Assembly: GCA_902728285.1 (NCBI GenBank)
Contig: CACVBU010000492.1
Coordinates: 1,554,787-1,618,786 of the forward strand
Direction: 5' to 3'
From: Clytia hemisphaerica
Lineage: Eukaryota; Cnidaria; Hydrozoa; Leptothecata; Clytiidae
Length of the DNA stretch: 64,000 nt
Each line of letters opens with the position of its first letter. Positions within the stretch are counted from its first letter, which is position 1. The notes beneath the pieces were generated by a model. The model did not search any database, had not been told where the DNA came from, and worked only from the letters and a program-made list of their open reading frames with translations. Position numbers and translations under genes: made by a program. Below are positions 28,095-58,775 of this stretch, in pieces.

Positions 28095-31000
28095 ATGGCT
28101 GGTCTCGGCGATGGTACAGATTTTCCTAGGTTTTTGAGGTATTTTATTCTCTAATTTGTTATTGTCTATTTTTGAACGATAACAGAATGACATTATGCTG
28201 GGATAAAATCAAGAATGAAGAAAAAAAGATTGTAACTGATAAAGATGTGGATGAGATCTTTCTTACAGAAAGGTAACTTGACTGTTGTCTACACACTAGC
28301 TAGTTAATTTTTTTTTGAATTTACAATTTTAAGATTAGTACCGTCAACTGCTCTAACTTGGGACGGATAGTCGAAACATGGGATTGTTGATATATGGACT
28401 GTATTTTTACTTACTGTTAAATCACTTTGAAAATAAATTTGTTTTGATACTTTCATCACCAACCAGTATGGATTTCGTGTAACTAACGTCGCGGGAAGAT
28501 CCTCGGCGTACAACTGAAACGTTTTTGGCGCATTGGCGTAAGGGTACTCACAAAGATTGTTTGATTTTCAGTTGGCGTAAAGTAATAATTCCAGCTCGGC
28601 GTGAATGACTCCTAATCCATTGATTTTTAGCTTTCATTTGGCTAAATTTTCTTTCGCTCGCTTACGCTCGCTTCAATTTATTAATCATGTTGGCGCATGC
28701 GCCTCTTTTCCCTTCTTGCACCCTTATTGAAAAATTGAATGTTGGTACAAAAGAAATTTTTCTTGGCGTGAGGCTTGCTGTACGGGAAAATATCTTCGGC
28801 GCGAGATTTCGTGGAATCCATCTACTGCCAGACGATCTCAATCAAACAGAATCGACAATCGAACCAGTCGAACCAAATCGAACGCAATCGACCGATTGAA
28901 ATATGATTGTCGAGCGCAATCGAATCTCAATCGAATATTACCGCAATTTTCAGATTCGATTGATATTCGATTGCATTAAAGCCAGACGATCTCAATCGAA
29001 CGGAATTGACGATCGAACCAGTCGAACAACAATCGAACCAATCGAATATTACCCAGAATTTTGACGTTCGATTGAGATTCGATTGCGTTCGACAATCGAA
29101 TTTCAATCGGTCGATTGCGTTCGATTTGGTTCGACTGGTTCGATCGTCGATTCCGTTCGATTGAGATCGTCTGGATACTGGATCACCAAGTTTATCAACC
29201 ACACTTCTTCTGTCATTCATATGTATTATTTTCAAATTGTAAAATTGTTTGTTTTTTTTTGTTTTTTTTTTTGTTTTTTTTTGTTTTTTTTTTAATTATT
29301 ATGACTGAGGAATTAGCATCATTTTCTGTTTTTCTTTTCCCCGTGCGGCCGTCCCGTTGCGGGAGGCCAAACCGGGTTCTCGTCCAACTTCTGATTCTGT
29401 ATTAGACAGTCTTTTGTGTTTTTTTCTGTTTTTGTGTGATTTTTTCTATTTTTCTGTGAGATGTTGTTTGCTAAAATGTTTGTTTCACGTGTAGTGTATG
29501 TGGGATAGTTGGTACAGTGTGTCTTTTTGCCCTTTTGTACTGTATTTTGTTGTAGTGTCTGTTAATTGTTTGGAAGCTGCTGGTCGGTTCTGTTATGTTT
29601 TCTGAAGGCGACTGAGTGTGGGCCCTTAAACACGTGGAAAGTCACTATGCCAGTCACAAGTCTGGGACTTTGGGTTGTGTTTTGTGTTTGTATGTTTTTT
29701 TATGTATTTGCTTTTGTATTTGTCCCCATTTTGTATGTATTTTGATGAACTTGTGTAAATGATTGAACGGAAGTGTGTTTATCAAAAAAGTTTTTTGCAA
29801 TTCATTGTTTCTCCACTATTACTTTTCTTCTATCTTCATTTGGATTAGGTTTTTCTTTCACATACCACTATTTAAATTCCCTTTAACTTTTTTCTAAATT
29901 ACCGCCTTTCCCTTTTTCATTGTGAGAATGCCACATAAATTATTATTATTATTATTAACGAATATTTATTCAGGATGATTACTTTTCAGTTCTAAAAATG
30001 TACAATATTTACATAAATATATACAATAAAACTGTTTTCCGTTGCAGTCCTGATAAAATATAAAAACCCAAATCAAAAAATATAATTAATAAATTAGCTA
30101 AAATATTGAAAAAATCTAAAAGGCTAAAGGCACTGGAGAAAAAAGGAAAGAGAAAATTAAACGTAGGGCTAAATGCAAAGACCAGAAGTAAATCAAATAG
30201 TAATAAACTTCGAAGACTACGGGAAAGTAGTAATGGAGTTAGAAAAAAATTTGATCAGACTACACAGTGCCAGGGTAAAATAATTAATCTGAACCTAAAA
30301 ATTCTCTGTTTGATATACCTAAACTATTGACAATTTTTGCAGCACCAAAGTAAAAACTTGGCCTCGATGCTTGCAGTTTGATACTAGGTAGTTGTAATAA
30401 TTTGTTATTATTCCTTGTACCACGATCGTGTTTTATCACTTTAAAATAATTATCAAAAATATCATGTTGGTACATTTTCTTTACACAATTTTTCACCATT
30501 GTGCAAAGTTCTTTCTCCATCAAAGATTCAGTCTTTTTAACTGAAGGGATACCAATGATCTTAGCTGCACGATTTTCAAGAGAAGCAAGCTTTGATTTTT
30601 GCCCCTCATTGAAGGTGGTTTTGATCGAGCAACTATAAGTCAACAGTGGGACAATCATCAGTTCATAAATTGATTGTGCAGCACTGGCTGTCAAAAATTT
30701 TCGAACACCAAATAACAAACGTAATCGACCTGAGGCAGTTTTGTAGGATTTGTCAAAATTAGTGGAAAGGTTGAGGTGGTGATCGATGACATTTCCAAGA
30801 TAACAATATTGGGTCACGGAGTTAACGATGGTGTTGTTGTACTTTATCGTAACTGTTTTTCCATACCTTGCCATTCGTTGAGCAGTACCTAGCAACATTA
30901 CCTCAGTTTTACCTTTCTTGAAATTTAGTAAAAGTTCATTCTCCTCACAATATTTGACAATGGTTGATAAATCTTTATTGAGGGCAGTTTCGATTTCATT

Positions 31001-34000
31001 TGTTGTTTTGGCACCAAAGTAGATAACAGTGTCATCGGCATATTGGATGATTGAAGAGTGTTGGATAGAATCACAAAGGTCGTTAAAAAAGACAATGAAG
31101 AGGAGTGGCCCAAGAATTGACCCCTGTGGGACTCCTGATGTGATAGCCTCTTTTTCCAAAAAGATGCTATTGATTTCAACACATTGGGTACGATTGAATA
31201 GATAGTCGGTGATCCAGGCTAGTTCTGGCCAAGAAACACCATGTAATAAAAGTTTTTCAATGATCAAACTGTGCCCCATTGTATCAAAGGCTTTAGAAAG
31301 ATCTAAAAACAGACATCCAACAAGAAGTCCATCTTCAAAGCCTCTCCGCACAGAATCACACAGGAGGGTAGCAGCAAGTTTGGTGGATCGTCTTTTTCGA
31401 AAGCCAAACTGACAGTCTGAAAGAAGTTTATTGTCTTCCAAGAAAGAATATAACTGCTCATGTACTGTTCTTTCAAGCAGTTTTGACAAAATCGGTAATA
31501 TTGAAATAGGTCTATAGTTTTCGACAAGATCTACGTTTCCGGACTTGAAGACTGGGTTAACTTTTGCAGTTTTCCAAATGGTGGGCACTGTACTGGTCAT
31601 TAACGATAGGTTGATGATGTGAGATATCGGATCAGCAATCTTCTCAGCGCAGTCTTTTAACATATTCGGCGGGAGTGAATCCATACCAGTTGCTTTGTTA
31701 CGTTTTAATTTGTTTAAATGTTTTAAGATATAGCCAGGAGTGATGAACGAGAACTTGAAGATACTTCTAGTTCGCAAGGGACGTTTCCGGCCGTAGCCCC
31801 ACGTACAGTTTCTGAGTGGAAAGCTAATTGACTTCATCTTTTTCACGATTGTAGAAAAGTAGTTTGAAAATTTATTAGCACGGTCAGTGGGGAATGGTGC
31901 CAGATGAAGCAGAGTGTTTGGACTTTGCTGGAAAAATTGATTTAATTGTTTTCCAGAACTTTTTCGGGGATACACGGTCATGTTCATTCAAGGTATTTCG
32001 ATAATGAGCCGACTTTGCTCGACGAATAAGATTGATGCAGCGATTCTTTTGACGTTTGTATTCTGCCCAGTGAGCGTTTGATTTAGAGCCTCTTGCTTTA
32101 CGCTCGAGTTTGTCGCGAATGTTCATCTCTGATTTTATATTATCGTTTAACCATTCACATGGTTTTCCTTTGATACGTTTTTCGACGAGAGGTGCATGTC
32201 GGTCGAAAGTACATTTCAGTTCAGATCATAAATATTCAGCAGCTTTGTTCGAATCAGAGACGTTACTGTAGATTGGCAACCAGTCGATTGATTGAACGTC
32301 ATTGCGTAGATTAACTGGATTATATGCTCTGTAGTCTCTGCATTTGATAGTGCGGTAACTGTATTTAAAAGAATTGATCTTACGACAACAATAAACGAAA
32401 TCATGATCACTGAGAGATGTAGCAACAACACATGAAGTTGTGAATGACGATGGTTTTGTAACAAAAATATGATCGATTAAAGTTGCTGTGTCTTTTGTGA
32501 TACGGGTTGGTGTTGAGATAATTTGTTTGAAACCATGCAAAGACATAATGTTTTTAAAATCGAAGTGTGAACGAGAGTCATTATCATTATCATAATTGAC
32601 ATTGAAATCGCCCATCAAAATAATTTCTTTGTTCTCTTTTGAAACGAGCTCGATGTTTTCATTTAAACGGTCATTAAAGTCATCACAGAGATATTTTGAA
32701 TCATCAGGCGGTCGATAGAAAAAACCAACAATAAAGGATTTTGTTTTTTTGACAAAAATTTCGATGTAGATATTTTCTATAGAAGCACTATGTAAGTCTT
32801 TGCGTTCTTTATAGATGATGATGCCGTTTTTGATGTAAATTGCGACACCCCCTCCTTTATTTTTCCGATTGAAAATGTGTAGCCTTCGATTTCAAACTGG
32901 CTCATATTACCACTGTCGTTCAAATGGGTCTCTGATAAACCAATAATATCTAGCTCCCTATTTAACTCGAGAAAAGTTTGAAAAGAGTCAAACTTTCTAG
33001 GTGACTCTGGGTCCTTAGGGTCAAGGTGTGCTTCCAAGCCTCTGATATTCTGGTGTCCCATTTTCAATCCTTTTCCTACTAGCCTTCTCTTGAATTGCTC
33101 TCCTGTTAAACTAGCAGTCTTTGATTGAGGTCCAGGGCAAGTTTCAACATCTCCAGCGATCAAAAGTAGTAAATACAAAGCAAGTTTTGGTTTCAAACAA
33201 ATCTCTTTGCCATTTTGAAATAAAAACAAAGTCTCGTAAACATAAGTAACACCACTCTCTTTAACAATTCCATGAGAGTAATCATAACAAACTGAATCAC
33301 AATCAACAAAAGGTTTCTTGATGTTAAAAGTTATGAAAATTGATAGCACGAGCATGACCGCTCTCAACGCCGCCATTTTCAAAAAGATAATAATTTACGG
33401 GGCTCCCCCAGGGGCTGGCGTGACGCGTGAATGACCCTTTTTTCTGTCGTGAATACGTGAATTGGACTTTTTCAACGCGTGAATACGTGAATTGAGATAT
33501 CCGCGTGAACGTGAAAATAAGATTTTACCAGCGTGAATTCGTGAATCGAGATTTTGAGCGTGAACGTGAAAAGCAAATTAATGTCTAAAACAAAACTGAA
33601 AAACCTAAATATGTAAAATTTTCTTGCTCGCTTCGCTCGCATAATCCTTGATATCATATTGACCTATTGCCATTGTAAAGTTATTCAGAATAATCAAAAA
33701 TTGAAACAGAAACAAATATTTTTTCCTTATTTTTCTAAGGGCGCATTTTGTGATGCAAATATTGCATCCAGCGAAAGTGTTTTGAGTCAAAACAAAAAAG
33801 TCTAAATGAGAAAATTTTCTTCGTCGGCGCTAATGATGGTCGTCTTTCTGTAATCGCTTATATTGTTACTAAATGCAGTATACACAAAAAGATACCGCAT
33901 GAACTTGGAGACAATGAAGGGTATTTGATTCTTCGATAATTTACAAAAGTAGGTAGATAGTTCTAAAAAAATTTATATGATTGCATCATCGAACATTCAG

Positions 34001-37658: not shown

Positions 37659-38451
37659 ATTTGTATTTTATTGTACAGTACATAATTTAAAAAGAGCGAT
37701 GTGGATATTTTTGTAATTTGTGAGGTATTCTTTGATTTCCCCTTTCATTAATAACTGAGTAATACAACCTCGCCATGGCGTTCTACTTTATGACGTCATT
37801 GTCCCTACATGTTTCTTGATTGCCATACAGAGTATAGCTTAGAAACATTCGGGTGTAAGGGACGCATATCGAAAATCGATAAACCGACAAGAATGAGGCC
37901 AGAACAAATCAGCCCAAGCCTAATCTCGTGATTTCTAAAACTCATAAGCGTGAAAAATTTTCCCAAACTATCGGATTTTGCTGAAATTTGGCACATATCA
38001 AGAATCTCTTCCTAAAAATTAGTAGGGGTTTTAGAATAATTTGAAAGATACGAGCCAGTAGTACGGTTAGCAATTTGGTGATATCGTTTGCTTACTCATC
38101 AATTTTAATTTACAAGCTTTTTCACATTGGATTGACACGGATGTGGAACAAGATTGGTCAGAAAGAAGAAAAGAAAAACACTTCTTTGTTTATATCAGCA
38201 TAATATAACAATAGGCAGACACTGAAATATGTGTCTGATATGAAACGGGAACACTTATGTAAAAATAAAACTTTTAGATTAAAAGATTTATATCTTGTGC
38301 ATGGCAAATGTAAAAATACAGTATATATAAAACACTTAATGGGGTGCAATTAACACAGTCAAGTTAAGAGTGTAAGCAAATCAAGATGCGGTGAATTTCA
38401 TTTTTTACCAATGGTACATTCTAAGGTGCAACCACTGGGTCCACAAATGCA

Positions 38452-39465
38452 TCATGTACTTGATCTTCTTCGTCTTCGTCCCCACCATGCTTTAGCTTTA
38501 GCATCTCTTTTAATGGATAACTCTTCGTCATTTTCATCAAAGTCATCCAAATCTTCATCCTCGACTTCTTTGTCCATCCCTGAATAATTAAGTGGTAAAC
38601 TTATTTCTCTTTCATACAGTCAATCCCATTAGACTAGAAAAGATCATCGCATATACTTTCAATAGCCGTAGCTCAAGAAGAGAGAAAGAGTTGAAATACC
38701 TTACTAATGATATACATAAAACTATCTTGCAAATAGACTGCAGCTCATTGGCATTTTATGGTATAAAGTTTTAACAAGTCTTTCTTTTCAATATTGACAT
38801 TTTTCTCTTTGCTTCTTGCAAACTCGACTCCGCAATCAAGAAAATTTACCATACCTTTTAAAACATCTCTGACAGTTTCTTTTATAACTTCTTTAAGTTC
38901 TCTTTTCTTTTCATCTTTTCTGTTAGGATGGTGATAGCCTAAAAAAATATAGTTTATTAAGTTTGGCTGTGAGATAAACCATGCTAAATAGGGAGCCCTT
39001 CCCAATGGAAAAATATATTGTCCCCGGTGCAAAATTATCCCCCAATTTTTGTCCCCGCACTGAAAATAATCAAATAAACCAATCCTCGCTGCAAAATATT
39101 TTAAATTTTTCCCATCCCTAATGAATTTTCTGACTTTAAAACAAAAGAATTGAAATCCCCATTCATAAAAAATATGTGAATATTATCCCCATCGAGTTTC
39201 AGTCTGTTATTTCTATCCCCACTGGCTGAAAAAATCCTACCGGGTCTGTGAGCAAGATGTATAGGTGTATAGAGCAGAGATCACTATATCCGAAACTGAT
39301 TTCCAGACAAATTTTAGATTTAATTATCTGTCGAAATTTGATCAAATTTTCAAGAAAATAAAATCGTGCGATCAACACTGGCAAAAGAACAAACAAAAAA
39401 TCCTCACCAAGAACAGTACAGCAAATCAAAGTCAGCAACAACAGATTTGCCAAAATGACCTTCAT
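38452..39465 (-). CDS. Putative secreted peptide precursor: signal, basic and acidic segments, KR site, WWG-poly-Arg
   Basis: Exons: 39408-39465, 38855-38938, 38452-38579; phases agree and give 89 residues. Residues 1-20, MKVILANLLLLTLICCTVLG, form a clear signal peptide. Residues 21-48 are basic and helical (YHHPNRKDEKKRELKEVIK and on). Residues 49-69 are strongly acidic (about 14 Asp/Glu). Then comes a KR convertase site followed by DAKAKAWWG and five Arg. The layout fits an antimicrobial precursor with an acidic pro-part, as in Hydra arminins, or a neuropeptide precursor: Gly before Arg is an amidation signal, so a peptide ending Trp-Trp-amide is possible. I recognise no homologue. Exon 2 could instead read through its weak donor to a stop at 38742. 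The start codon lies about 100 bp from the TTAA element at 39569. Confidence 0.6.
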
Positions 39466-39568
39466 CTTATCCTATTTTAGGACGTTGCTACTATTTTTTG
39501 CTTTTAACTTTGTTTTGATCAATCCTTCGAATAGTAATCCTTTCGACTTTTTGCCAGAGATGATTTAA

Positions 39569-40279
39569 GGGCTCTGACCATAGTCAGAAAATACATTTTA
39601 GTATCTGAATATAAAAGTTATGTTTTAGATTCTTTAACACTTTTAACAAAGAATTGCCTTTATAAATTGCTTTTTAATCAAACCCCTTAAGAGTAATTAA
39701 GAACTTAATTGCAAAAATGACGTTATGAACTTTAAAAAGACGTTAATAATATGTTGCATCACCTTCTTTTATAAAAAGTGCTAAGTTTTAATGGGTAATT
39801 AAGCTTTTTGTTTCGAACTTTTTTCAAATTTTCCGCAAAGAATTGAACTATTTTAAATTTTGCGGAAAATGTTTCTAAAAAGATGTGTCAAAAGTTATGA
39901 ATGTGTTTTTAAGCAAAATCCAGATGGAAAATTGATGAAAAACCACTATTTTGAAGATTTCGAGACAAAGAAGCATTTACAAAAATTTTCCGCAAAAATT
40001 TTTATTGTTCGGTAAAAGATACACCATCTACTACGAAAATTTTTTCAAAATGTTTTTTCTTCGCCGAAACTAAGCTCTTCAAAGTTGAAACAATCTTCCT
40101 CGCAAAAGTCTTCATTTTCTTCTTCATCAAATTTTTTCAATGAAATTTTTGAATTTTCAGATTCAGGAATAGTTTGTCTAACAGAAAATATAAAATATGC
40201 CATATTTTTGTTGGTTACATCAGTCAGAAAACACATTTTAAACACGGCAATTATGAAAAATTCACTATGGTCAGAGCCC
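39569..40279. mobile_element. piggyBac-type (TTAA) miniature element
   Basis: The ends are GGGCTCTGACCATAGT and its perfect complement, each flanked by TTAA (39565-39568 and 40280-40283), the piggyBac target signature. Short inner similarity follows (TCAGAAAATACATTTTA against TCAGAAAACACATTTTA, both reading forward). The minus strand holds an acidic open stretch (FDEEENEDFCEEDCFNFEEL, ending at 40045) preceded by a possible acceptor. I cannot say whether that is a transposase remnant or chance. Confidence 0.65.
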
Positions 40280-40283
40280 TTAA

Positions 40284-41956: not shown

Positions 41957-44900
41957 TTAAGAGTCAGGAAAACATAAGAGCTTCTTGGGTTTGGAGACAT
42001 CTTTATCAAAGAATTTGTTCAATCGTTTGTCCGTCAACGTTTGTTGTCTACCGAGGTCATCGTTGAAGCTTCAGAGAAGAAGGAGAAAATAATAATTATT
42101 ATTATTAACAAATTTGATAGATGGGCCCTAGAAGAATAATTTTTTCAGAGCACTTCTTATATAGAGGCTGTACAACCTTAATCAAACGCTCAATTTTCTA
42201 TAAATTTCATGTATTACTCAGAGTTATTCTTAATTTTTGAAATTTGTCAAAAAATTTTAATAATGAAAATTAGTCATCATTTTGAGAATATCTTTCCAAC
42301 GGTTGTTTGTTTCTCGTTGTACAGTCAGTGTAGAAAATAGTTTATTATGACCCTTTAAGTATAATTGTTATTAATAACCATCTTACCACAACTCGATATC
42401 ATCAGGAACACTTTGAGATTTGACCAACTCGGTCACTTCGTTCAACGTTAATCCATCAGGGATTTTGATCTTCTTGACAAATGTGTATTGTATTTCAACA
42501 TCATATTCTAATGAATTGCCACCGTTCATTGTTGGTGAAGTGACTTTCGCTGAAGGTTGAACCGTTTTCTAAAAGAAATTAATTTTTGTAGAGTGCATGG
42601 TGTTGGATAAGATAATTTACCAATTGTTACTGAGCGTTTTTTAAAGTTTTATTTTTTAAGTAATATGGTTCATCAAAATATTCCCAACGTTGTGCACTAG
42701 CTGAGTTCTCATGAATAAATGGAGTTAAAGGATTAGATGATTGAATTTCAAAAAACAACGTCAGAAAAACACAGGTCACATAATAGCTATATCTTACCTT
42801 TGGAAGTTGAATATCTACAAATCCAGGAGGGAGCGTGGCTGATTGCCTCTTCAATACTGCACTTAACTCCTTCTTCAAATCTTTCTCCTGCATTGAGCTT
42901 TCTGGTGATTTAGGAAAAAATTTTCGTGGTGGAGCCGAAACCACACCGGGTGGATCAAGTGTTGGTGACGGTGGCAAATCTGCGTTGGCTGGTGGTGGTG
43001 GTGGTTTACGGGCGGGTTTTTGGGCGTTACTTCCACGCCTTTGGCGCGGTGGAGATTGGTTTATATTGTTTAATGGCGATGATTCTTCTTCTTTGCTTTC
43101 ACTGTTTCGTTTAGGAAGAATGGGCGGCGGGCGGGGCGGTCTGTATTTGTAATCAGAGCTATCAATGTCTTCATAAAGTTCACCGCCATCGTCTCCATCC
43201 ATTATCAGATCATTGTAATTCTCATCGGGTTCACGTGGAAGACTTCTTTGAGGAGCTTGAAACTCTCCTTGTTGCCATGGTGGTAAAACTCCAGGTGGTT
43301 TCTTGTGCGGCGGTTTGGCGGGAGGGCTGTCTTCTTGAGGCGGGGGTGGAGGAGGCTTGCTTTTGTTCGATCGTGAGTATGTCGGTGGAGGGTCCTCTAT
43401 AGACATTGATCGACGTTGTCCAGGTCTCGGTGATGGTTGTTTTTCGTTGGGTTGTTCGTCTGTTATGGAGGGTAGTCTTGGTAGACCACTGCGTGCAGGC
43501 GGGACTGGATTTGTCGGCATGCTTGGGAGGATTTTAGGTGGAGGTAAGTTAAATTTACGATCATTCTGCATTGTTGGAAGACTCTTTGGAGGAGGAAGAC
43601 TTGCTTTTCTTTGTGGCTCTTCATCAGCCTGTACATTTGAAGAGTTGAAATTTCTTGGCAATGAGCTCGGAGGGCGTGGTGATTTCTGTGGAATATTTGG
43701 GGTGGAGCTCGTATCATCGGTTCTTGATGTAGAACGGGGTGGAGGGCGTTTGGGTGTAAAATCAACATCATTTTGCTGTATAGGACTTTTTGGTAACATT
43801 TTTGGAGGTCGCGGGGTTGGACGGAGTGAAGATTTCCTTTCGATATCTTTCAAATCTGTCATGAGTTTCTTTCGAGTCTCTGACGGTTTCTTGAACTGAA
43901 AGCAAAAGAATTATACATTGATAGAACCAAGTTTCTCAGGTGATACACAGAAAACATACTGGAAACGATGAAGTGTTGTTCGTACTTACGTCGTCTCTCC
44001 TGTTTTTGACACCAGAAAAACATGCGTATATCTCATCGTTGTTTTGCGTTGATATGACCTGCAAGACAAATATTGAAAGTTGAGAATCAAAGGATTTGTG
44101 AAAATATAAGAATCGACGGGAAGGGCACGTTGTTTCAGGTCTGTATGAATATTATAACACTCCTCTTCCCACAGATCCGAAAGGATTTTTGTGGGTGTGA
44201 AAATAATAACGGACCAAAACTCGATGGGGGATTGGTATTCCCATGTTTTTACTGACTGGAGATTTGAATTCCATCGCTTTCGAGTCAGAAATTTCAGTGC
44301 GGATGGAGAAAATACCACACTATTTTGCAGTGAGGATTTGCTTATCTGATTATTTTCAGCGGGAACAAAATTAGAGTATATTTTTCCACTGGAGACGATA
44401 TTTTAGCCAATTTTTTCAGAGAGAAGGGTTTCCCAGTGGTTCTTCGAGAAGGGGGTGTATTATAAAAATTCGATTTTAGAAACTCTCGAGAGGCTCCAAA
44501 GTTTTTAGATGAAATAAGTTGATAACGTTCAAATAGTATTCATTGAAGCATTTTTAATACGTTATATGGACGTTGTGAACGTTAGACGTTGAAACAACGT
44601 TGTGTGCCAGCTGGGAAGCATTTTTAATAGAATTTCTTGTTATAAGAAAGAGTCGAGACACACTTACCTGAGCTGTGCCCAGATAATCTTTGCGCTTGAG
44701 ATTTTTGACGGCTGCTTTTGGTGGACGAAAGATTTCACTTTGTGGAGGAATGAATGGATTGATGGGATAACCAGACTGGTGAAGAAGAAATTGAAAAAGG
44801 TTCAATGTTTTCAGAAGATCAAATAAAACATTTATGTCAAGGCTTTACAGTAAAGAAAACACATTTTACGCTACATCATACAACTTTCGACTCTAACACT

Positions 44901-47711
44901 ATGAAGATAGTAGGGTTAAGTTTGATTTTACCACTGCCAAGGGCCCAAATGCCTACTTTACCATAAACTTTGGAAAGCCAGTTCCATACTTGCTCGAAAA
45001 TTCCTTTCAATTGGACCACAGTAGTAGGGTTTACAAACAAAGAAGCGTATTTTTTTTCAATATTACCTGTAGAAGAGATAAACTTTCCTCTATATTCTCG
45101 TGCTTTCGTTCCGCTTTGCATCCGACCGCTTCTAAGAGAAGTGTTTTCGCTTTTCGAATCTTTTTTTGGCGGTAAGCCACAACTGCTTGATTGGTTAGAA
45201 TCTTAAATGAAAATAATTTGAAAATCAAACCGCAAAAAGAACTGTAAAGTCTTAGGCAAGCTATCGTAAGCTGATTTATTTATATAATGAATCACAAGGG
45301 TGGATTTAACGCAGTTTTAACATTGATTCCATTCGATGGGCAAGTAAGCTCTTTGGTTGTTTTGCGGTCTCAAATTATCCAAGAACAAGAGAGAGGAGGG
45401 CTGAAAATTGTCATTTCCTTCAGATTATGAGCAAACATTCCCACCTCACAGGAGTAGAGTTTGTATTTGAAACCAAGTTGTTGATAATCGACGTATCGAT
45501 TACCGCGAAGTTTTTCGTGTGCTTGCACGAAACGATCGAATGAATAATCGAACCTAAATCAGATAAAAGTAATTAGCATTGTATCTCATAGTAAATTCTT
45601 TGAAACGAAGAAAATTGTGGAATAGTGTCTCGTTGTCGGAAACATGTTGCGTGCTATAAGGTATGGAAAAACAGTATCAAAACAGGAAACCGGAAACCTC
45701 CCGTTCCAAATTTAACAGGCTTACTCTTCAGCCAGATAGTAGATAAGACCAAGCATAAAATATGCGATCGCCATATGGCTGTCCAGCTCCAAGGCTTTCA
45801 AATAATGCTGAAATTCAAAATATGAAAATGGAAACAAATATAATTCAGTATAGATTCAAAACCTGTCTCTTCAATTCTTAGTCATCCTAATGTTACCCAC
45901 ACAGAACCCACACCCTTTAGTTAACATATTATTATAATATACCATATAGCTATAGAGCCTGAAAGGAGGAATCTAAAAACCCAGCTTCCCCACAACGTTG
46001 GTTCAACATCTATCTTATTTTATATGAATAAAGGAGCGATGGTCCAAAGATCTTGAAAGAGAAAGAGTCACAGACCAGGAGTTCCAAGTTCGAATCCTAG
46101 CTCCTTAGGGAGTGGTCAGAAAGTATCTACTAGGGGGGAGTGGAGGATATTTTGAAAAATCCCAAAATACTTTCGCACCCCCTCCCCTAGCCTGGAAAAA
46201 AATTTTGAACCCCCCCCCTCATAAGGCCAATATTTTTTCGCACCCCCCCCCCCCAACTAGAAAAATTTTTACGCAAAAAAAGAATTCATACAGATGCGGT
46301 ACAAAGAGTATTATTTGTTTGTATGACAGTTTTTTATGTCAAAATTAGGTAAGGGAGATAGTTTAGCCCTGTAAAGTTGAGTATATAGTCCTTTAGGAGA
46401 TCTACCATTTTGATTGACGTTTTACACCACGGGATTTATTCCGTCGATTTCCATGGTTACGACGGAATTTCTCTGAGGTAAACAAAAGAAAAAAACCCGT
46501 GGTGTAAACGTCAATCAAAATGGTAGATCTCCTATAGGAATAGTCCAGGGTTAAAATAAGAATCAACGAGTTATTTTCTCTGAGTTTCCTGAAAATTACG
46601 GCTTATTTTCCCTGATACATAATCTCCCTACATTACAGAGGCATTACTCAATTAATCAAAATATCCTGAGGGGCCACCATGGTTGGCCCCGAAGGGAGAA
46701 AATTTTGAAGATCAGGTACTGGAGACCCTAAAATAAATGCTATTCTGTTGTTAAAAGGAGTCTGAAAAATAAAATTCTCTGAGTTTGAAATTTCCCTATA
46801 AACCTATATTTTCAGGTTTTCAAGGGTCTGTCAAAGCTCTGTGTATATAATTTATAAGATATTAAAAGAGACTAAGGAGGCACAACCATGGTTTGCGCCG
46901 ACGGGAGAAAATGTCGATGTTTTTCACCACCATTTTAGCTAAAAGACACTTTGTTTTGACAAATTTCTTTCTAAAAAGTACTTTTTCAAACCACTCTGAT
47001 GAGCTGTGAAAGCCACTAATCTACTTCCCTCATTTAGCTCAATGCTACAAACCAAAAGGGCAAGGCGATGATGCCCAAATAATGTTAGTATGACATGTAC
47101 ATATATCAAATAAAATAAATTCTGAGTTGTCGGCCGTCAGGCCGAAAAATTTTTGAAATTTTGAAATCTTGAAACGTAAAACTATGAAATTAGACTTCCT
47201 ACATTTTCTCTTGAGTTGCCCAAAAGATTTGGAACCCCCCCTAAACCCTCAAAAAAAATTTGAACCCCCCCTAAACCCTCGAAAAAATTTTGGAACCCCC
47301 CCCCCAGAATCCTCCACCCTCCCTAGTAGATACTTTCTGACCACTCCCTTAGATTGCTCCATTCAGTTCATAGATAGACGAGCTGTGAACCCTGGTTTGG
47401 GAATCTATTTTCTTCTATCTGCCGAGAGTACTCGATGATATCAGAGTTTGTTCAAATTAAAAATCTATGAGTGTTATGAACGTTAGCAGGAAGTCACTAG
47501 AAGGACGTTTTGCGGCAGCTAGGAAAGAAACCAAACTCACAGCTTCTGCGTTATCCAAGTCGTCTTTCTTCAGATAACAACATCCTATATTAAACAACAT
47601 TTTGGCAGTTTGTTTGGCTGATTGAAACATCTCAATGGAAATATCTATGTCACCATTATCGTAAAGTTGGACTGCATCAAACCAGATCTGTAGATCGTTG
47701 GCGTTTGCCAT
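41957..47711 (-). CDS. NCF2: p67phox (NCF2)-like NADPH oxidase activator A: TPR, activation domain, proline-rich region, PB1
   Basis: Exons: 47541-47711, 45725-45807, 45445-45553, 45067-45201, 44668-44775, 43990-44058, 42798-43895, 42387-42568, 41957-42068; phases agree, 688 residues. TPRs fill residues 1-166 (MLFNIGCCYLKKDD, MAIAYFMLGLIYY, LGFKYKLYSCE). The Rac-binding residues of human p67phox D67, H69, R102, N104 and D108 are matched by D66, H68, R101, N103 and D107. The activation segment RKDYLGTAQVIST (about 192-206) keeps the key Val. One large exon (residues 226-591) is proline-rich with many PxxP and poly-Pro runs. A PB1 domain (about 610-688: YDVEIQYTFVKKIKIPDG, ELWCFNDD) ends the protein. 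Both SH3 domains of vertebrate p67phox are absent. It would activate a Rac-dependent NOX at the membrane. Confidence 0.85.
42798..43895 (-). CDS. NCF2: Proline-rich exon of p67phox-like gene A
   Basis: A single 366-codon exon, about one-fifth to one-quarter Pro by eye, with basic class-I/II SH3-ligand-like runs (RPTPRPPKMLPKSP, SKPPPPPPQEDSPP, KPARKPPPPPANADLPP) and Tyr motifs in acidic context (GGELYEDIDSSDY). It replaces the SH3-containing middle of vertebrate p67phox. Long open frames on the opposite strand are mirror images of this Pro/Gly coding and are not genes. Confidence 0.8.
46030..46107 (+). repeat. tRNA-like fragment, possible SINE head
   Basis: GGAGCGATGGTCCAAAG (A-box-like) and AGTTCGAATCCTAGCTCC (a good B box) are the right distance apart, and the ends GGAGC/GCTCC pair as an acceptor stem. 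The T-stem and anticodon stem do not pair well, so it is not a working tRNA gene. It lies in intron 1 of p67phox-like gene A, next to a transposon. Confidence 0.35.
46108..47348. mobile_element. PIF/Harbinger-like element, TTA duplication
   Basis: The ends are GGGAGTGGTCAGAAAGTATC and the perfect complement, continuing for about 40 bp (CTACTAGGG and on). TTA flanks each side. Subterminal C-runs alternate with TTTTGAACCCCCC words. A hairpin MITE sits inside at 46394-46534. No transposase frame is seen. It lies in intron 1 of p67phox-like gene A. Confidence 0.7.
46394..46534. mobile_element. TA-flanked hairpin MITE nested in the Harbinger-like element
   Basis: TAGGAGATCTACCATTTTGA at the left is complementary to TCAAAATGGTAGATCTCCTA at the right. 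Pairing continues through GATTGACGTTTTACACCACG, with a single-base slip. The element is about 140 bp with a loop of about 60 bp. Confidence 0.75.
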
Positions 47712-49008
47712 GGCTGTGTTCTATGTCTGAAGATTGCAATTAAAGAAATTGAAAGTTCATACAGTAGCAAGCAAGAGGATCCGGCTGGACTACCTGACCC
47801 TCTTAAAATACTGTCCATCATTAATAGCTTAGTGCCATGGACCTCAAAATTTGTGAAGAGAAGTCATAATTTTAAAACTTACTCAGATATTCCATTGCTT
47901 CACTGTTGATATTCAAATATCATATAAATCATAAAGACACTCTCAACTTACCACACTTCGAAAGCTACCCTCAATTATTTGCTTTGTCAACTCCAAACTA
48001 CATTTTATTTCTACAGTTTGATTTCATTAGCATAGGATTCACATCTCAAGCATACATACGTAAAATTAACAAAAAATTAAACGAGAGATGGACAAAATCA
48101 AGAAAATAAAGTCTATACATTGTTTTGCCATTTAACTCCTCCTCCATTTTAAAAGCGTGTCATAAGAGAATATCTCCTTTTGAAGGCTAATTATATGCAA
48201 TGGATTAAATACTATTATCCTAATGAGTATTTTCTTCAGTAATAGATGGTCTTTTTGATGTGAGAGATTTGTTTAGCTCAGATTTCAGTGAATATATGGA
48301 AAATATCATGGTCATTGTTCGACCACAGTAGAGACGATTGAAGATATTTCTAACCAGGAAAAACTTTCCATGGCCCACAAGTGATTAAGTGGGGAAAGTG
48401 AGATTTGCAACGAGCAATATTGAATAGAGAGTTTAAAACATTGGAATATTTCTTATAAATCATTATGTACAGTAATAAACAATTTGTATGTTTTAAAAAT
48501 CGATAATTTGCGGTTTGAAAATTGATCTATAAATAACTACAAATATTAAAAAGTTACTAAAATTTCGCAACATTCAGAATTTGGAAATATCTCTTTTGCA
48601 AAACAAATGACAAACAAATCAACGGCTATCTAAAATTACTGTTGATTTTCTCTAATTCGAACTTTAAGAGACTAAAAACATTCTTCAAATTAGAGAAAAA
48701 TTCGAATTAGAAAAAGATTTTATACGACTATCAAGCTGAGGAGGCAAATGTGTTCGTTCGAATAGACCTTTTCATAAATTACGTAATGAACATCATTGCC
48801 TCGTTTTAAAACAATTACCATGGTGATTATGTCCCTTGAGACATTAAATCATTTTTTCATGAAAAGAAAGTAGTTCTAATGAAATCCGCTGGGAGTTAAT
48901 CACCTTGGCAATAATTTCAAAACGAGGCAAGTGATGTTCGTGACGTAATTTATGAAAAGGTCTATTTGAAGATTTCATAGCTTTTTAATTTCCATGGTAA
49001 AGAACTTT
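47712..49008. other. Spacer between the two p67phox-like genes
   Basis: AT-rich spacer, probably holding the 3' untranslated region of gene B and the promoter of gene A. Apart from the hairpin element at 48763-48964, nothing is recognised. In particular no PB1- or SH3-like exon for gene B could be found here. Confidence 0.5.
48763..48964. mobile_element. TA-flanked hairpin MITE
   Basis: TAGACCTTTTCATAAATTAC at the left pairs with GTAATTTATGAAAAGGTCTA at the right. The arms extend about 70 bp (TTGCCTCGTTTT, CCATGGTGATT against complements). The TA ends fit a mariner-type miniature element. It lies about 45 bp from the stop codon of p67phox-like gene B, probably in its 3' untranslated region. 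Confidence 0.72.
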
Positions 49009-52000
49009 TCACAAGGTCAATTTAGGTAAGGGCTTCTTTGGAGGAGCAGTGCGTTTGTTTTGAGACACCGGCATGAAAAGATTACCATAAATTGCATCTT
49101 CAGTAACGCTTGGCTGCTCAATGCTGACTGGAAGCGGTTTAGGCGGCGCCTTTTTAGCGGTATTATTGTTGTTATCATTGTAAGAATTTGTTGGATTTTC
49201 ATCTATAGTGGCGTATAGTTCTTCAGCCTCTGGAGAATGTTTTTGAGGTACTGGTGGTCTAATTGGTGGTTTAGTCTCGCTTGGCTTATTGTTGGGTAGT
49301 TTGAACGGTTTTGGTGATTGTGGTTGGTTATTGTTGATTGCTTGTCGGAAAACTTTTGGTGGAGATGACGAAGACTTGTTGCTGTTTGTAGATGGTCTGT
49401 TGAACGGTTTTGGTTGAGTTGAATTCTGGTTAAGTTGATCAAGGATAGCGTTGAATGAGTTAGGTTTATTGTCGTTGTTTTGAAGCTTTGGATTGAAAGG
49501 TTTCGGTTGATTGTTGTTTATAGGTTTCTTGGTAGGCTTTGGCGGTGATGATGGGGTGTTATTGTTTTCGTTGTTGGTATTGAATTTATTGAGTACAGGT
49601 GGTTTTGGTTTTGTTTGCGTCGGTGGAGAAGGCTTCCCTGGTGGCCCTGGTGGCACTTTGGTTGGTTTCCCTGACAACGACATTTGTATATTTGTTGTTG
49701 GCTTGTTGTTAGAGAGAGACGAAGGGTGCATACTGATCGGTCTTGGTTTAGCTGGGGGAGCTTTTGGTGTTTCTTTTTCCAGTGGTGCAAGGTAAGTATC
49801 CTCACAAGATGTTTTCCTCGTCGGACCACTGCCCATACCACCCATCATCGAGCCACCGCCCATACCGCCCATTAGAACTCTCATCAACTGTTTTTCTTTG
49901 ATCGAAAAATTACGTTCTAACATGTTCGCTTTTGAATTATCATTTGTGGTGTCTAAGCTTTGGGCTTTGTTGATTGGTTTAGGAGGCGGTGGATTTCTTG
50001 GTAACCTCGGTGATGAGATGTCGTCTTGTTTTGGAATGGAAGGTCTGGGTGGTTTTGCAGGCGTTGAGAAAGTAGGTTGTAGAGGTTTCTTTGGAGGACT
50101 ACCAATCATTGAGATTCTGTTTGGAAGATCAGCTTCGACAGATCTGGATGTTTTACGATCTGATGGTTTAACAGGTCTCATAGGAGGTGTTTTTGGCGCT
50201 GGTTTTTGATCCAGATTCTCCATCGATTTGGCTGGTCGTATCGGGAAGGCCTTCTTTGTTAAAGGTGGTGTTTGAGAAAAGGAAGGCCTAAATGAAGGAT
50301 TTGGTGGAGAGCCTTTTATAGAATTAAATGAATCAGGATGCTTTGAGATGCGTCTAGGGCGTGGTGATGGCGTTCGATTGGGTGCTGTTTGAGTAGGGCG
50401 GCGATCAGGGGCGGCTTGTGTAGGGCGTCGAGCTGCAATGGGTGGAGTTGATGGTCCCTTCTCTAGCATCTAAAGGAGAAAATACAGAAACATCGTTAAC
50501 AAAAACCTAAAGTTTACAGAAAAATATCCATTTGTCAATATCCATTTGTCATTTGTCAATTTCTACTTCACTAATGAGCTTATTATCTTACCTTATCAGT
50601 TATTTATTGACTGAATAGGTGCTAACCCCTAAAAGATTAAAACAAACCAATACAGTTGTTGGATTTAGTTTAGAGGAATAAAACTTTAAGCGTGGTCATC
50701 ATTGTGGGTTATCACGGATAGATGTAAATAAATCAAACCTTTTTCCCAGAGAATGTAGAATATATTTCTTCGGTGTTTTCAGTCGATACAACCTGTTCAA
50801 AAAGATATAAAATAATACTTAATAGGTCATTAAGCTCTATAAATAGTTAAAGTCTGTCTCAAAAATATGTGGATACTTTAGTTTTGGAGCCCTTTTTCAG
50901 CAACCATTGATGCTATGTTAGAAAGTTGTACACCGTTGGAAAGATATTTCCAAGGAAATTAACTGTGAAGTTGGTAATTTTTGCTATTTTCGGTCAATTT
51001 TGGCCGCTTAAGGCCTACTTCAAAGGACTATAACTTTTTATCTAAGAAAGATACGCAAAATCTGAACACAGATTGGAAATCAGCAAGGTTCAAATAATCT
51101 AAAAACTTTCACATCCTGATTTTTAAAACAATACAAAAAATCTTCATTTTTCCAACTTCATTTTTCTTCTTCGTTTTTCAATCTTTTATCTTTCCCACGT
51201 TGTAAAACTTTCTAACATACCATGAACGGGTGCATAGAAAAGGTAAAAAAACCAAAATGTCCACACTTTTGAGACTTTAGCCGAGTACAGATTCTTTATA
51301 GTTAATCTTCTCTCGTCATCTAACTTTGGAAGAAATTATACAAAAGCTAAATGTTGAACAATACCTTAGCTTGTCCAAGATAGTTCTTTTTGTTGACATT
51401 CTGAATGCTTGCTTTGTTTGGTTTGAACAAGGTGATTGGTAGAAATTTGACGATACTGACTGATGCACCAGACTGAAAAACATCAAAAGTTTGAAAAATA
51501 TGTTGAAATATGCGAAGTTGTTATATACACACGCCCGGGGGAGTGGGCACCTAGGCAAATGGAATACAAGGGTGTGTTACGCCTGTCGTTCCACCAAGCT
51601 AGTATCCCTGGGTATACACGCTATATTAGAAACTGGAAATATCTGTGACTAAAGTCTTCTTCGTGCTTGCAAAAAATTCATTCCACAGCCGTTGTACTCT
51701 TTTGAGATGTTTAAGTCTGTTACCGCAGTTGGAGGCGACCCGAAGATTATTCCTATTTCGAAAGCTATCTACCCGAAGGTAGGGGAGGGAGCCTCTCTTT
51801 CTCCCTTTGGTTGCTCAACTCACCCTTGATCCTTCTCTTAATTGCTGAGCATCAAGCAGAGAGGCTTCAAGTACCATATTGGAAATCTTTGGTATGACCC
51901 GGCTGAGGATTGAACTCACGACCTTGCGCACCGTAGCCGGATGCTCTACTACTGCACTACGGTCGCTTCTTGCGATGAGAAAAAGTCTTAATACGAAAGA

Positions 52001-53608
52001 AATTAAAGAAATTGAAAGTACAAACCCTGATAGAATTCATAGTATGTTGAATATGTTCATTGTTTTGAAGTTGCTCATTCATATGAACGATCCCATCTCC
52101 AATCCCGTACTTTCTTGCCAGTATCAACATATTACCTATCACCTGTGAGTGGGAATAGTATTAACAAAGTCAATATGACACTGTAGAAAAGATTAACGTG
52201 TTGTCAGACATGATTTGAGTCATTTCAAACATTCTGATCTCAATCCGAGTAAGTAGTTTTTCAGCCCCTTCAAACCCCACAGCTTACATTGAATCCTTTT
52301 GTGTTTAGGGTCGATATAGGTATTGTTTTATTCTATGAACCCCTCTCAAATTGAGATATTCGCCCAAAAAGCGACTTCCTCGCCCGAAAATAACGAGAAT
52401 TCTCATAATATTTAGACGCAGATTGTACCTGGTACTCGTGCATGATATGTTGCAAACCCAGTGGTCGATAATCGATGAACGTTTTCCCTCTCATCGCCTG
52501 GTGTGCGTTGTCATAACTTTTATATGAAGCCGCATATCTAAAGGGAGAAAAGAAAGGTTGCAATATTTGAAAACTTTTGATCGAAAAGGTAGTGAGAGAC
52601 AGTAAAGAGGCAGTAAAGAGGCAAGTAATTGCAGCTGACACTACCTTAGTGTGAATCGAAGACCTCTACAAAAATGTAAATATAGGAAATATAAGGAAGA
52701 AGTAAGAAGTAAGAAGGAGAATTCGTTAAAGGATGTTGGTAGCCTAAACACTCTGGAATTCTGAATCATTTTCCCTTTTTGAAGGAAACAGAATCCTTTA
52801 AATATCTTTTAAAATAACGTCTTCTTACTTTTTCTCTTCGAAGTTGAGTTCTCCTTGTAAGAAATATGCGATGGCCATGTGATTGTCCATTGTCAATGCA
52901 TGGTTTAATTTCTAAAGTAAAATTTTCTCTCAGTTATTTTTGAGTTAATTTGGTTGTATTTCTCTATCTGACTACTATGTAATCAGAAACTGGGCAAAAA
53001 CATCACCAGTAGCTTCTTGGCAAAACCACTATGGATAACAACCTTATGTTCAAATGATGATTTTTGTCTTGGTGTTCAATTGGGGTAATTCTGGCATATT
53101 GAGACAGGGATAAAATCAGCTAAAAAAGTCAAGCAAATCTACTCAACAAGCATCAAAACTACAAATACAGTAAATACACGTAGTTTTTTTTAAAAAGAAC
53201 ATCCAAAATCTTTGAAGCCTTCAGATGTTCTTAACTTTTTGAGTTTTTAAGCCTAAAAATGTTCTTAACATGTTCTTATTTTCGCCATTTTTTGAGTATT
53301 TTTGTCCATTTTCCTAAGAAATTGGGTGTTTCAGAGTCCACAAAGCCTTAAAATTTTCTTAACTTTTTCTTAACATTTTCGCCATCGAAGCCTTATGTTC
53401 TTATATAGTTTGTTCTTATAAAAAAACGTGTACTTACTTGCAGTGCCCTTGTACAATCATTTGAACTCAAGAAGCAACAACCAATGTTGAACATGACTTT
53501 AGCAGTAGGTGTCAAACTCTGAAATTTCAAGATGGCATCCTCATGTTGATTCTGTTCGAAAGATTCGATAGCTTCTAACCAGTTGGTCACATCCTCAGCA
53601 TTGGCCAT
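49009..53608 (-). CDS. NCF2: p67phox (NCF2)-like activator B: TPR, activation domain, long proline-rich tail, no PB1
   Basis: Exons: 53438-53608, 52829-52911, 52429-52537, 52026-52142, 51365-51472, 50739-50792, 49009-50469; phases agree, 700 residues. The first three exons match gene A exactly in length (171, 83, 109 nt), so the two are tandem duplicates. TPRs: FNIGCCFLSSND, MAIAYFLQGELNF. In the Rac hairpin D66, H68, R101 and D107 are kept, but the position of human N104 is Lys (K103). The activation segment KNYLGQAKVVST (about 189-200) is intact. The 486-codon last exon is proline-rich (KPPRPSIPKQ, PPPPKPINKA) with a Met/Gly patch (LMGGMGGGSMMGGMGSG) and two Tyr motifs (ELYATI, AIYGNL). It ends PPKKPLPKLTL with no PB1 and no SH3. 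Confidence 0.83.
51640..51967 (-). mobile_element. tRNA-derived SINE
   Basis: Read on the minus strand, it starts with a tRNA-like head: CGTAGTGCAGTAGTAGAGCA (A-box region), then GGTCGTGAGTTCAATCC (B-box region), closing with CCGGGTC. About 250 bp of non-tRNA body follow, including GCTCAGCAATTAAGAGAAGG. The anticodon stem is degraded, so it is not a functional tRNA. It lies in an intron of p67phox-like gene B between the fourth and fifth exons. Confidence 0.55.
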
Positions 53609-56600
53609 GGTGATGGTGCTTATTTACTTTTCATTGAACCTTGTAGTTAGAAGAAAGAGGAAAAAGATTAGAACAGAAAAAGACTTTGCACCACTCACCA
53701 ATTGATTTTGAGTTCCTTGGGCATTATGTACATCTGCCAAGGAAGTTATTGCAAACTCAGTGTTAAATACTATTGAGGTCCGTCTAAAAAGTGTAAAATC
53801 TTATGCCAACAGAATATCCAGTTGATTTTCTACATTTTTACTGCATTATAGGACCATGTTTTGAAGTGAATGTCGAATACAGTTTTCCAAGTAGGAGTAA
53901 ATAGATTCAATACACAAACAACTCAATTCATAAATATAAGTTTGCATCCAACCACACTGTGGACATCTAAACATACTTTCGTTTTCAACCACGACATTCA
54001 TAATAAACAGCAACACACGCACTATAATGAGAAGCATTTGAAATTGGAAAGCATGCTTAATTGGAATCTCATGATCATCTGACTTACAAGCCAATTAACT
54101 ATAATTCAGACCCGTCATTTAGTTAAAAGAATTTCTTCAATGCACATAGCAAGACAAACCAAGACGTCACATATCATTTACGAATAAAACTCTTTCACAA
54201 AAACTTTTTCTAATAGAACTCAGTTATAAGTCATATGATATTACGTCACAAGTTATGAATCATAACATTATAACATATTGTAAGAAATGTCCGAAGAGAG
54301 GAGAGGTAAAACCGTTCAAGGTTTCGTTACCAATACATAAGGCCTTATATGGAAACAAATGGACCCTTATCTTTTTTAAGCTGCTGATGAAATATTGAAT
54401 TAGCAATGACTTAGCAACGACGTATAGAAATACCAAAATGGGGCCAAATGATAGGATCGTTATAATTTCAAGTTTAAAAGGATAAAAGCAAGCCTCCAAA
54501 TTCAACAAGTTCCTGTGGTCATTCCCCTTTAAAATCATTCAGTAAATTCTACTCAAACGTCTACATCGTTGAGAATTCCTTCCCGAACCTCACCAACACT
54601 TTTCTATGAATTGAAAGGAAGAGAAATCCACTGACACTGTTCTATATCAGAACTCCAGAATAAGAATGAGAAATAGAGAATAATTCAGAGTGGAGAAGGT
54701 GTGTAAATCCTAAAACCATTTACTGCTTCATTCCACCGATAAACCACTCCTATGCAACTCTACCAGACAGAAAAATATTTTCCTCTGATAAACAGAATGA
54801 CAAACTTTATCTGATGTGTGTTTTGACATTGATAAGTCAACCCGCAAAATAAAGTTATTAGCCACATACATTTTTGATTTATAAAGTTTCCTCAAACAAA
54901 TAAAACTCGTATCGAATTTCAATTCATGTTCTTAGCAACGCAAGCAAGTAGAAGGATTATTGAGAAATCGAGATGTTACGAAGACTTATGTCACGAAGGA
55001 GCATGACGATATCCATTTCTCTATGGACAATTTGTCTTAATGATCAGGACAATCTTATAAGAAAAACGAGACTCGATTACGCGATAAATGAAGAATAAAC
55101 TTGAACCTGAAAAGGCTGAATTTTAAGCAAGTTTCAGAATCAGCAATAAAAGTAGGGTTTATGGCCTAGAATACATCGGTTTGGCCCTAAAAACAAGAAA
55201 TTGATAAAACAATTTGAAGCTCGGAATATCAAGCGAAAAAAAAACATGATTTACTGCTTCTAATAATAAGAGAGTTCTAAATCTGTAATCAAAATTCGAT
55301 TGTTGACGATGATAAATGGTATTTAATGTGAAAACTGTCAGATCAAGGTAAAAAAATAAAAGGAATTGAACATGGATATTCAGCAGGCTTGCCAAGAATC
55401 TATGAAGATAGAAATGCTTTTGCTAATTCGAGCTTCATTCACCGGATCATTATAGTAACGATATTTCACAATTTTCTTAGGATGTATCAAATGCTGGGGT
55501 TTGGGATGTACGTAGAAAAAAATATAGAAAAACAGAGATATTATTAATCACACTCACGAAACACATTTCCAACCATATGGCTGTTGTCAAAATACTTGAA
55601 AGTTCATCTCTTTGTTTCCCAAATGAGATATGTTATTTCGAAATCTGAAGTTGACTCATTATTCCCAAGTGAGCCAGAAGAAAAATTTTTTCACCTTTAA
55701 ACACAAGAACAACAAGATCCAACACTGCCCAAACCTTTACGATTTATTGTTCCAATATCATATTTTTTAAGTTTATTTTTCTCTGGAAAGGAAAATATAA
55801 ATCTGAATCATAATTTTAAGGGATTTCAAAAATATACGTACTTTGGTAAAAACAAGGCTCAATTTTGGCAATTATCTATTGATAAATTATAAAAATCTTA
55901 AGATAGTCCTAGCTTTTAAGTATAAAAAATGGCCATAAAATAAGCATATTTAAGACCATTTCAGTCTCAACCAAAATCAACTGGTTCTTATAAAAATACA
56001 TGTAAGACTTTGTCCACTTGGGCAAACAAGTAGCATTACGTAGCATTAAGCCAAATTTCAGTTTTAGTCAATATAATTCTTTTACAACATCAAATTTACA
56101 AGTACTCTTAATCAAAATATAAAAAGTTTTTTCGTATTTTACTTTCATGGGTATATTACAAAAGATCACATCAGGAAACCATCACTCAAAAAAATGTCTC
56201 TGTTTTTTGGCTCAAAATACAAACAGGATTTCTATATTCTCAGCCTTGTATTGATATTATCGTACTAAAGTTAATTTGGAGTGGATTGATATGGTTTTCT
56301 TCCTCAAATGATTCCTATGTTAGGAGGGTATGGACCAAATCAATTCTGAAATGATCTAAGCTTTTGAATTGCTTTTATCTTTGAATTTTTACTTTGGATT
56401 CTAAAATCATGAAAGCGACATCTTCCCCTAACGATAGAGAAACATTTCACGACAATAGACTCAATAATAATAGGCAAGAGAAGAATTGTTCTAATCTATT
56501 CTGATCTATTGTTATTGAGCAAAAAACACCAAACTTCTTTTGGATAACTTACCAATAATAGTAGCAAAAATTACTGCAATATTTCATTTAAGATAGAAAA

Positions 56601-56944: not shown

Positions 56945-58775
56945 TCACTGTTCGATCTCCGGTAAAGTCGGGATGGTGGGAAGCAACGAACGCCGTTTGC
57001 TCATCGCATACGTATTATTCCGGCTTTTATGGATGACCGCTATATCACCATTCCGTAAACTTTGCGGTGATGGGTTAGGATTGGAGCCGAACATATTACT
57101 GTCTCTACGAGAAAAGCGTTTCATCCGTAGCTGGAACTTATCCGCGCCTTCAGTGTCCGATTTATCACTGCCGTCCTCCGGATCTTGATTCAAAGACGAC
57201 TCACTTGAAGAATGTTCCGGTCGCCGATTCATATCGTCAACTTTGAGGGCGTTAGCAGCGCCCACAAGCACCCGCCTCTTTTTCTTGGGTAGTTTTAAAC
57301 GTGCTTGGGCGTGTGAATAGTAAAGGTTGAAATTATTGACGATGACGGGGACGGGGAGAGCGATCATGAGAACTCCACATACAGAGCAAATGGTACCCAC
57401 ACACTGAAAAAGAGAAGAGAACGAAATATGGTCAATGAAAAGGTTTTGGTGCAACGCATTTGTGATTGTATTTCTACCCAGTAGAATGAGTCCTTATGAA
57501 AGCAATCCCAATATTTTTGACTAATTACCTTAAAATTTCAGGGCATTGAAAAACAAGTGTTTACTTTATTATATTGGAGACGATGTGCATCATATGTCTT
57601 TTATAAGCATCGGATATTTCGAGCTGAATCAGGTTGGGTCTAGTTGTATGCTTAAAGTATGAAAAGAATAGGAGTAACACTCACCTTTCCTAATGTTGTC
57701 ATGGGTACCATATCTCCATAACCCACGGTTGTCATGGTAATCACCGCCCACCAAAATGTGGCGGGAATTGAGGAAAATTTCGTATTCGGTTCGCCATGTT
57801 CACAATAAAACGCCAAACTCGAAAAGATCACTACACCAATAGCCAAGAAGAAAATCAAGAGTAAGAGTTCTCTGAACGAAGCTTTCAGGGTGTGTCCCAG
57901 AATTTGTAGACCGACGGAATGTTTTGATAGTTTGATGATACGGAAGACGCGAATGACACGGATGCTTTGAATGAAAAATGAGAACTGTGAATGACTATGG
58001 AGTCCGTACTGCATGATCACTTGTACAAAAAACGGTAGAATCGCCATAAAGTCTATCCAATTTAAAATCCCTTTCAGAAATGCGATTTTATCGGGGCAGA
58101 ATATGAAACGAATGGAAAGTTCGATAGTGAAATAGAAAACGCAGCATCCTTCGAAAGCGAGGAGTATGGTTTTTCGTTGATCGTTGCTTTTGAAGTAGTC
58201 GACGGTTTCGAGACAGGAGAGGACGACAGAAACCATGATGAGAATCATACTGATGTAAGCCACCACCTGAAATACGAAAAATTATTATGAAAAAAACGAT
58301 CAGAAAAATGAAGATAAAAAAAAACTATTTCTTGTAGAATTGTCCTATTATCTTCATTTTCATATTGGAAGATCTTCTTAGGTTAGAGGGCCATCACTGT
58401 TACAGTTTTTTTGTCTCCGATGCGGATAATATTGAGGTAGCAGAGCCTTTTGTCGGATTGAGTTGATGAAACAGACAAATTGGATACTAAAAGTGATTTG
58501 CATTAAAAACTCCAAAAATAAAATGTTTTTAGGATTTTTCTGCTTCTCAATAATTAATTTTCTCTCTTTAAAAGGCTTTCTGAGGACAGTGAAAGAAGTA
58601 CAAACTTTAGCTTTTTTGGAGGAGTAAGGATCTTCCATCAGTTTCCACATGACTGGTTGCCATTTTCGATAACACGTGACCTTTTCTTCCTCATCATCTC
58701 CTCCACTGACATCAAAACCATATTTGGAGAGGTCTGGTTCCGAGTCATCGTCATAATTCTTCTCCAGTTCGATTC
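56945..58775 (-). CDS. Shaker-superfamily voltage-gated K+ channel, last three exons; T1 exon not in window
   Basis: Exons: 58606-58775, 57685-58266, 56945-57403; phases agree, about 404 residues. The first visible exon is the T1-S1 linker (acidic, then [15 protein letters not shown]). The middle exon holds S1 ([20 protein letters not shown]), S2, S3, S4 ([16 protein letters not shown]), S5 and the filter [10 protein letters not shown]. The last holds S6 with the PVPVIVNN gate, then a basic KLPKKKRR stretch and a Ser-rich tail ending PEIEQ. The S4-S5 and pore regions look Shab/Shaker-like; the post-S6 KLPKKK is Shaw (Kv3)-like, so the subfamily is left open. It would be a tetrameric plasma-membrane delayed-rectifier-type channel. 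The first exon here starts in mid-codon, so at least one upstream exon with T1 is missing. Confidence 0.88.

Follow-up and report, generated by a model that had tools for sequence, protein, structure and literature searches.

A candidate orphan gene for a secreted, charge-balanced precursor of a cationic peptide in Clytia hemisphaerica

Results and Discussion

The minus strand of the window (the whole 64-kb stretch of DNA analysed here) carries a three-exon model that is likely to be a real orphan animal gene. We read its product as a secreted prepropeptide from which a cationic Trp/Arg host-defence peptide would be released, an explanation to which we give about an even chance. In its favour are four good splice sites, a full combination of features that was seen in 0 of 1000 null windows and the charge balance of the product, and against it are codon usage (P = 0.18), a short C-terminal 17-mer that is non-amphipathic as a helix and the lack of a paralogue in the window.

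Gene model and splicing

Exon 1 (39408..39465, minus strand, 58 nt) opens with the ATG, encodes MKVILANLLLLTLICCTVL and the first base of the Gly20 codon, and ends in phase 1. It is followed by intron 1 (38939..39407, minus strand; GTGAGG...TTTTTTTAG; phase 1), by exon 2 (38855..38938, minus strand, 84 nt), which encodes (G)YHHPNRKDEKKRELKEVIKETVRDVLK and the first base of the Gly48 codon, by intron 2 (38580..38854, minus strand; GTATGG...AATTATTCAG; phase 1) and by exon 3 (38452..38579, minus strand), whose 128 nt including the TGA stop complete Gly48 and then encode MDKEVEDEDLDDFDENDEELSIKRDAKAKAWWGRRRRRSST. When joined (39465-39408 + 38938-38855 + 38579-38452), the exons amount to 270 nt and translate into 89 aa and a stop; the GT-AG borders, the two phase-1 introns and this joined translation bear out the first-pass annotation, which had proposed three phase-compatible exons giving 89 residues. 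With approximate animal splice matrices applied to every site of the window on both strands (6371 GT and 6862 AG), the donors GTGAGG and GTATGG fell within the top-scoring 0.9% and 0.7%, respectively, and the acceptors ending TTTTTTTAG and AATTATTCAG within the top 2.4% and 6.7%. A possible weak poly(A) signal, TATAAA, was located by pattern match at 38287..38292 (minus strand), ~160 nt 3' of the stop, with further candidates of the same kind at 38194 (TATAAA) and 38109 (ATTAAA), and a pattern scan between 38452 and 37800 found no AATAAA.

Organization of the predicted precursor

The translation runs in the order signal peptide, amphipathic helical segment, acidic propiece, KR and DAKAKAWWGRRRRRSST, and the architecture described earlier for this locus (a secreted precursor with an acidic pro-part, KR, a cationic C-terminus and G-R after WW) is present in the sequence. 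The exon 1 signal peptide MKVILANLLLLTLICCTVL has an uncharged hydrophobic core that passes the filter used in the model enumeration and is predicted to end in ...CCTVLG, where the V-L-G preceding the putative cleavage site fits the (-3,-1) rule. Downstream of it the 89-aa translation is devoid of cysteine. The acidic propiece (G)MDKEVEDEDLDDFDENDEELSI lies within exon 3 (38452..38579, minus strand) and precedes the KR site; in its most acidic stretch of 21 residues 13 are D/E, which corrects the earlier count of about 14 in 21. These residues are encoded by a mixture of GAT, GAC, GAA and GAG and the tandem repeat search reported none in the exons, so that repetition alone does not account for the acidic block. 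After the KR, the translation of exon 3 continues as had been claimed with DAKAKAWWG and five Arg, and the arginines that follow the Gly of WWG are themselves followed by SST.

The predicted C-terminal product is DAKAKAWWGRRRRRSST (38455..38505, minus strand; net +6) or, with cleavage and amidation, the trimmed DAKAKAWW-amide. The computed [M+H]+ values are 2088.1434 for DAKAKAWWGRRRRRSST, 1032.5261 for DAKAKAWWG, 974.5206 for DAKAKAWW-amide and 859.4937 for AKAKAWW-amide. The charges of the segments are +3 for the exon 2 segment, -12 for the acidic segment, +2 for KR and +6 for the C-terminal 17-mer, and the secreted part as a whole is near neutral (net -1, pI 6.17). Modelled as a helix, the 17-mer is not amphipathic (moment 0.137; mean of the shuffles 0.301), and any membrane action would therefore be that of a short Trp/Arg peptide and not of an amphipathic helix.

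Proposed release and role of the C-terminal peptide

As a defence peptide precursor, the gene product would be kept near neutral and harmless during secretion by the acidic propiece, and a prohormone convertase would cleave after KR, freeing a membrane-active host-defence peptide in the form of DAKAKAWWGRRRRRSST or of a trimmed and possibly amidated version. Short anionic propieces neutralising cationic peptides are described in marine invertebrates (PMC10608444). The G-R after WW could alternatively serve amidation with loss of the arginines, and the same signals might then belong to a neuropeptide precursor, in which cuts after KR and inside the Arg run, trimming of the arginines and conversion of the Gly would yield DAKAKAWW-amide or a shorter peptide acting on a receptor. 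We consider this unlikely, the best placed of the alternatives though it is. KR upstream and G-R downstream of the peptide are classical processing signals, and single-copy precursors of a Trp-amide (RWamide) are described for anthozoans (PMC7523074). Against this, the precursors of Wamides are repetitive and each contain a number of short peptides according to PMC7270403, and there is one here; the anthozoan RWamide peptide stands directly after the signal (PMC7523074), and here the peptide is at the far end. Five arginines also appear to exceed what amidation would require, and neither AKAWWG nor KAKAWW had a match in the full-text papers searched, which is a weak test. Defence is the more likely of the two proposed functions, as it accords better with a peptide that is present once and at the very C-terminus, with the charge balance and with the five arginines.

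A more far-reaching proposal, which we regard as speculative and rather improbable, is that this is a lineage-restricted gene without relatives in which each exon contributes one functional module, exon 1 for export, exon 2 an amphipathic helix and exon 3 an acidic mask with the Trp/Arg peptide; the helix and the acidic block would fold back on the cationic tail and stay there until cleavage at KR. Alternatively, the gene would encode a new-family peptide hormone ending in two tryptophans and an amide.

Chance expectation and coding potential

The enumeration covered both strands and admitted models whose first exon is signal-peptide-like, with two introns of 60-600 nt each and 50-150 residues in the product; the 64-kb window itself was the only animal DNA behind the chance controls. 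At strict thresholds, placed near the observed scores, one model was obtained from the real window, namely the described gene, against a null mean, whatever the charge, of 0.04 in order-3 Markov and 0 in block-shuffled windows (100 each), and the acidic block occurred in 0/100 windows of either kind. At loose thresholds the real window yielded 11 models, all sharing one ATG, and the nulls were 500 windows from an order-4 Markov model and 500 made by shuffling 150-nt blocks with the gene left out. At least 13 acidic residues in 21 were reached in 0/500 Markov and 0/500 block-shuffled windows, at least 11 with a basic tail likewise in 0/500 and 0/500, and at least 11 with no tail required in 0/500 and 2/500, counts that overstate the surprise because the enumeration criteria were fixed after the gene had been seen. 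With any charge allowed, the loose nulls held on average 0.48 (Markov) and 0.68 (block) model-bearing start codons per window, where the real window has 1; hence at these thresholds signal peptide and splice sites alone are not decisive, and it is the charge pattern that carries weight.

Codon usage placed the frame of the gene at -9.0 bits, the top of six readings, the others being penalised for stop codons. Compared with open noncoding stretches the gene was not clearly above (P = 0.18), with a small, transcript-unverified training set of 1694 codons from six neighbouring open frames that are partly proline-rich; by exon, P was 0.06 for exon 3, 0.29 for exon 2 and 0.89 for exon 1.

These results bear on whether the exons are open by chance, or are the remains of a decayed gene, with no protein being made, which we judge improbable. 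Such an origin would agree with a codon usage that does not separate the gene from noncoding open frames, with the roughly 0.5-0.7 start codons per window that signal peptide and splice sites alone give at loose thresholds, with poly(A) signals that are weak only, with the transposon-like element ending 100 nt upstream of the ATG and with the failure to find a homologue in Pfam, PDB, viral contigs and prokaryote genomes. It is opposed by the null windows, in none of which (0/1000) the full combination arose, by the near-absence of strict-threshold models from the nulls and by the good scores at all four splice sites.

Search for relatives

At a relaxed threshold Pfam returned four matches and no family at the cut-off; the best of them, FANCI_HD2 (E 0.0042, 16.8 bits vs 25), runs through the signal peptide and was judged compositional. 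PDB likewise gave four matches (best E 0.6) and no accepted relative, and no locus was confirmed among 20 pattern matches in viral contigs and 117 in prokaryote genomes, all four sets being poor places to look for an orphan, rapidly evolving animal peptide. The earlier statement that the precursor can be placed in no named family stands within the scope of these searches. Within the 64-kb window tblastn recovered only its own three exons, the next best match having E 0.49, and a resemblance of the acidic block to 40069-40140 (E 7.6) was rejected as compositional. Six peptide strings of the precursor, AKAWWG and KAKAWW among them, were without a match in the full-text papers searched, again a weak test.

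Genomic surroundings

The peptide gene is situated between a LINE reverse transcriptase and two TPR genes on the same strand. The LINE occupies 30284-33382, with its reverse transcriptase at 30284-31987, and its upstream ORF has a hydrophobic signal-like start and contains GDVETCPGP, which we take to be a 2A-like motif and for which the full-text papers searched gave no match. The two minus-strand genes stand in tandem at 42383-53623, with TPR first exons at 47457-47720 and 53393-53623; the former matched NCF2 (p67phox) in PDB at E 0.00025, with designed TPR proteins ranking higher, and the latter weakly matched neutrophil cytosol factor 2 (p67phox) in PDB (E 0.0091). Neither the long proline-rich exons of these genes (42627-43907 and 49012-50469) nor the possible PB1 stretch at 42386-42568 had a Pfam match at E 0.01, and the label "p67phox-like" thus rests on the TPR parts. 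Exons of a voltage-gated potassium channel were found at 56945-58842, with Kv1.3 and Kv2.1 as the best PDB chains, followed by other Kv1, Shaker and Kv3 chains. The Kv and p67phox-like genes both bear introns and mark the surrounding DNA as probably animal.

Intron 1 harbours an interspersed repeat (39012-39250), of which a copy in opposite orientation lies at 44170-44404 (73% identity). The element upstream of the ATG spans 39565-40283 (~720 bp), is bounded by a perfect 21-nt inverted repeat including TTAA (TTAAGGGCTCTGACCATAGT) and is presumably piggyBac-like. It has an acidic open stretch on the minus strand. When the window was translated in six frames and scanned for 21-residue stretches containing 11 or more acidic residues, just two places came up, one in the precursor and the other (40075-40137) inside this element. 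Scans of the window for tRNA and Rfam families were empty.

The helical segment of exon 2

The exon 2 helix RELKEVIKETVRDVLK, a 16-mer picked by eye, has a hydrophobic moment of 0.753 (P 0.002 vs shuffles), and longer choices gave P 0.02 (19 residues) and P 0.05 (27 residues). It is conceivable, at a low probability, that this helix and not the C-terminus is the active peptide, YHHPNRKDEKKRELKEVIKETVRDVLK being possibly amidated at the next Gly and exon 3 serving as an anionic extension of the ascidian type. The order of signal, cationic helix and anionic region is typical of Ciona precursors, and a cut before acidic residues is proposed for ascidians (both in PMC7387483); besides its strong hydrophobic moment the helix is a module isolated by exon borders. 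However, the segment has just +3 net charge with six acidic residues, a basic cleavage site is absent between helix and acidic block, and the KR site and R5 tail would be left unexplained. Least probable is an unprocessed secreted structural or matrix protein whose opposite charges would bind chains together, which accords with the oppositely charged blocks and the lack of cysteine past the signal peptide but hardly with a short product that has a KR site and G-R and is without internal repeats.

Comparison with known precursors

The architecture of the precursor is known in kind, and its sequence had no accepted match among the sources searched. The comparisons that follow are of descriptions, as given in the cited papers. 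The frog dermaseptin superfamily has as its signature a signal, an acidic piece ending in KR and a single C-terminal peptide (PMC3742671); this layout, also that of the phylloseptins, is found here, as a likeness of architecture only. Both the dermaseptin-type peptide and the candidate have a Gly able to donate an amide (PMC3742671), whereas the candidate has an extra amphipathic helical segment before the acidic piece, and R5 and SST follow its Gly. The dermaseptin superfamily signal ends in Cys (PMC3742671), while the predicted signal of the candidate ends in Gly.

With the arminins of Hydra and the arminin-like precursors of Trichoplax the candidate has in common a signal, a highly acidic N-terminal part, a cationic C-terminal part and possible amidation (PMC10945409, PMC12013895), and its segment charges show the acidic part followed by the cationic C-terminal part. 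According to PMC10945409, arminins are restricted to Hydra and form multigene families, and the defence-peptide genes of Hydra are clustered. The 64-kb window holds no paralogue of the candidate; the Trichoplax arminin-like precursors are ~150-250 aa long against 89 aa here (PMC10945409, PMC12013895).

The Ciona peptides Ci-MAM and Ci-PAP derive, as here, from a precursor of 50-100 residues with a signal and a cationic helix followed by an anionic region, and the candidate Ci-MAM-D of Ciona also carries a G-R5 run (PMC7387483). Most Ciona precursors end with the anionic region, to which the present one adds KR and a second cationic stretch of +6 (PMC7387483). The myticalins of mussels share a linear cationic peptide, an acidic region, Lys-Arg, a frequent Gly-Arg serving amidation and a phase-1 intron, but in reversed order, with the cationic peptide first and the acidic extension last (PMC5577615). 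A C-terminal tryptophan amide as in the Wamide neuropeptides is also possible for the candidate, which nevertheless has one WWG-R site in its 89 residues in place of a repetitive precursor, and differs further in its two terminal tryptophans and Arg-rich tail (PMC7270403).

Genes of this type are probably readily overlooked by annotation, being short, multi-exon and without homologues. If real, the gene supplies a checkable splice model and exact peptide masses, and it would add an orphan case to the charge-balanced precursors already described from frogs, Hydra, placozoans (arminin-like), mussels and ascidians.
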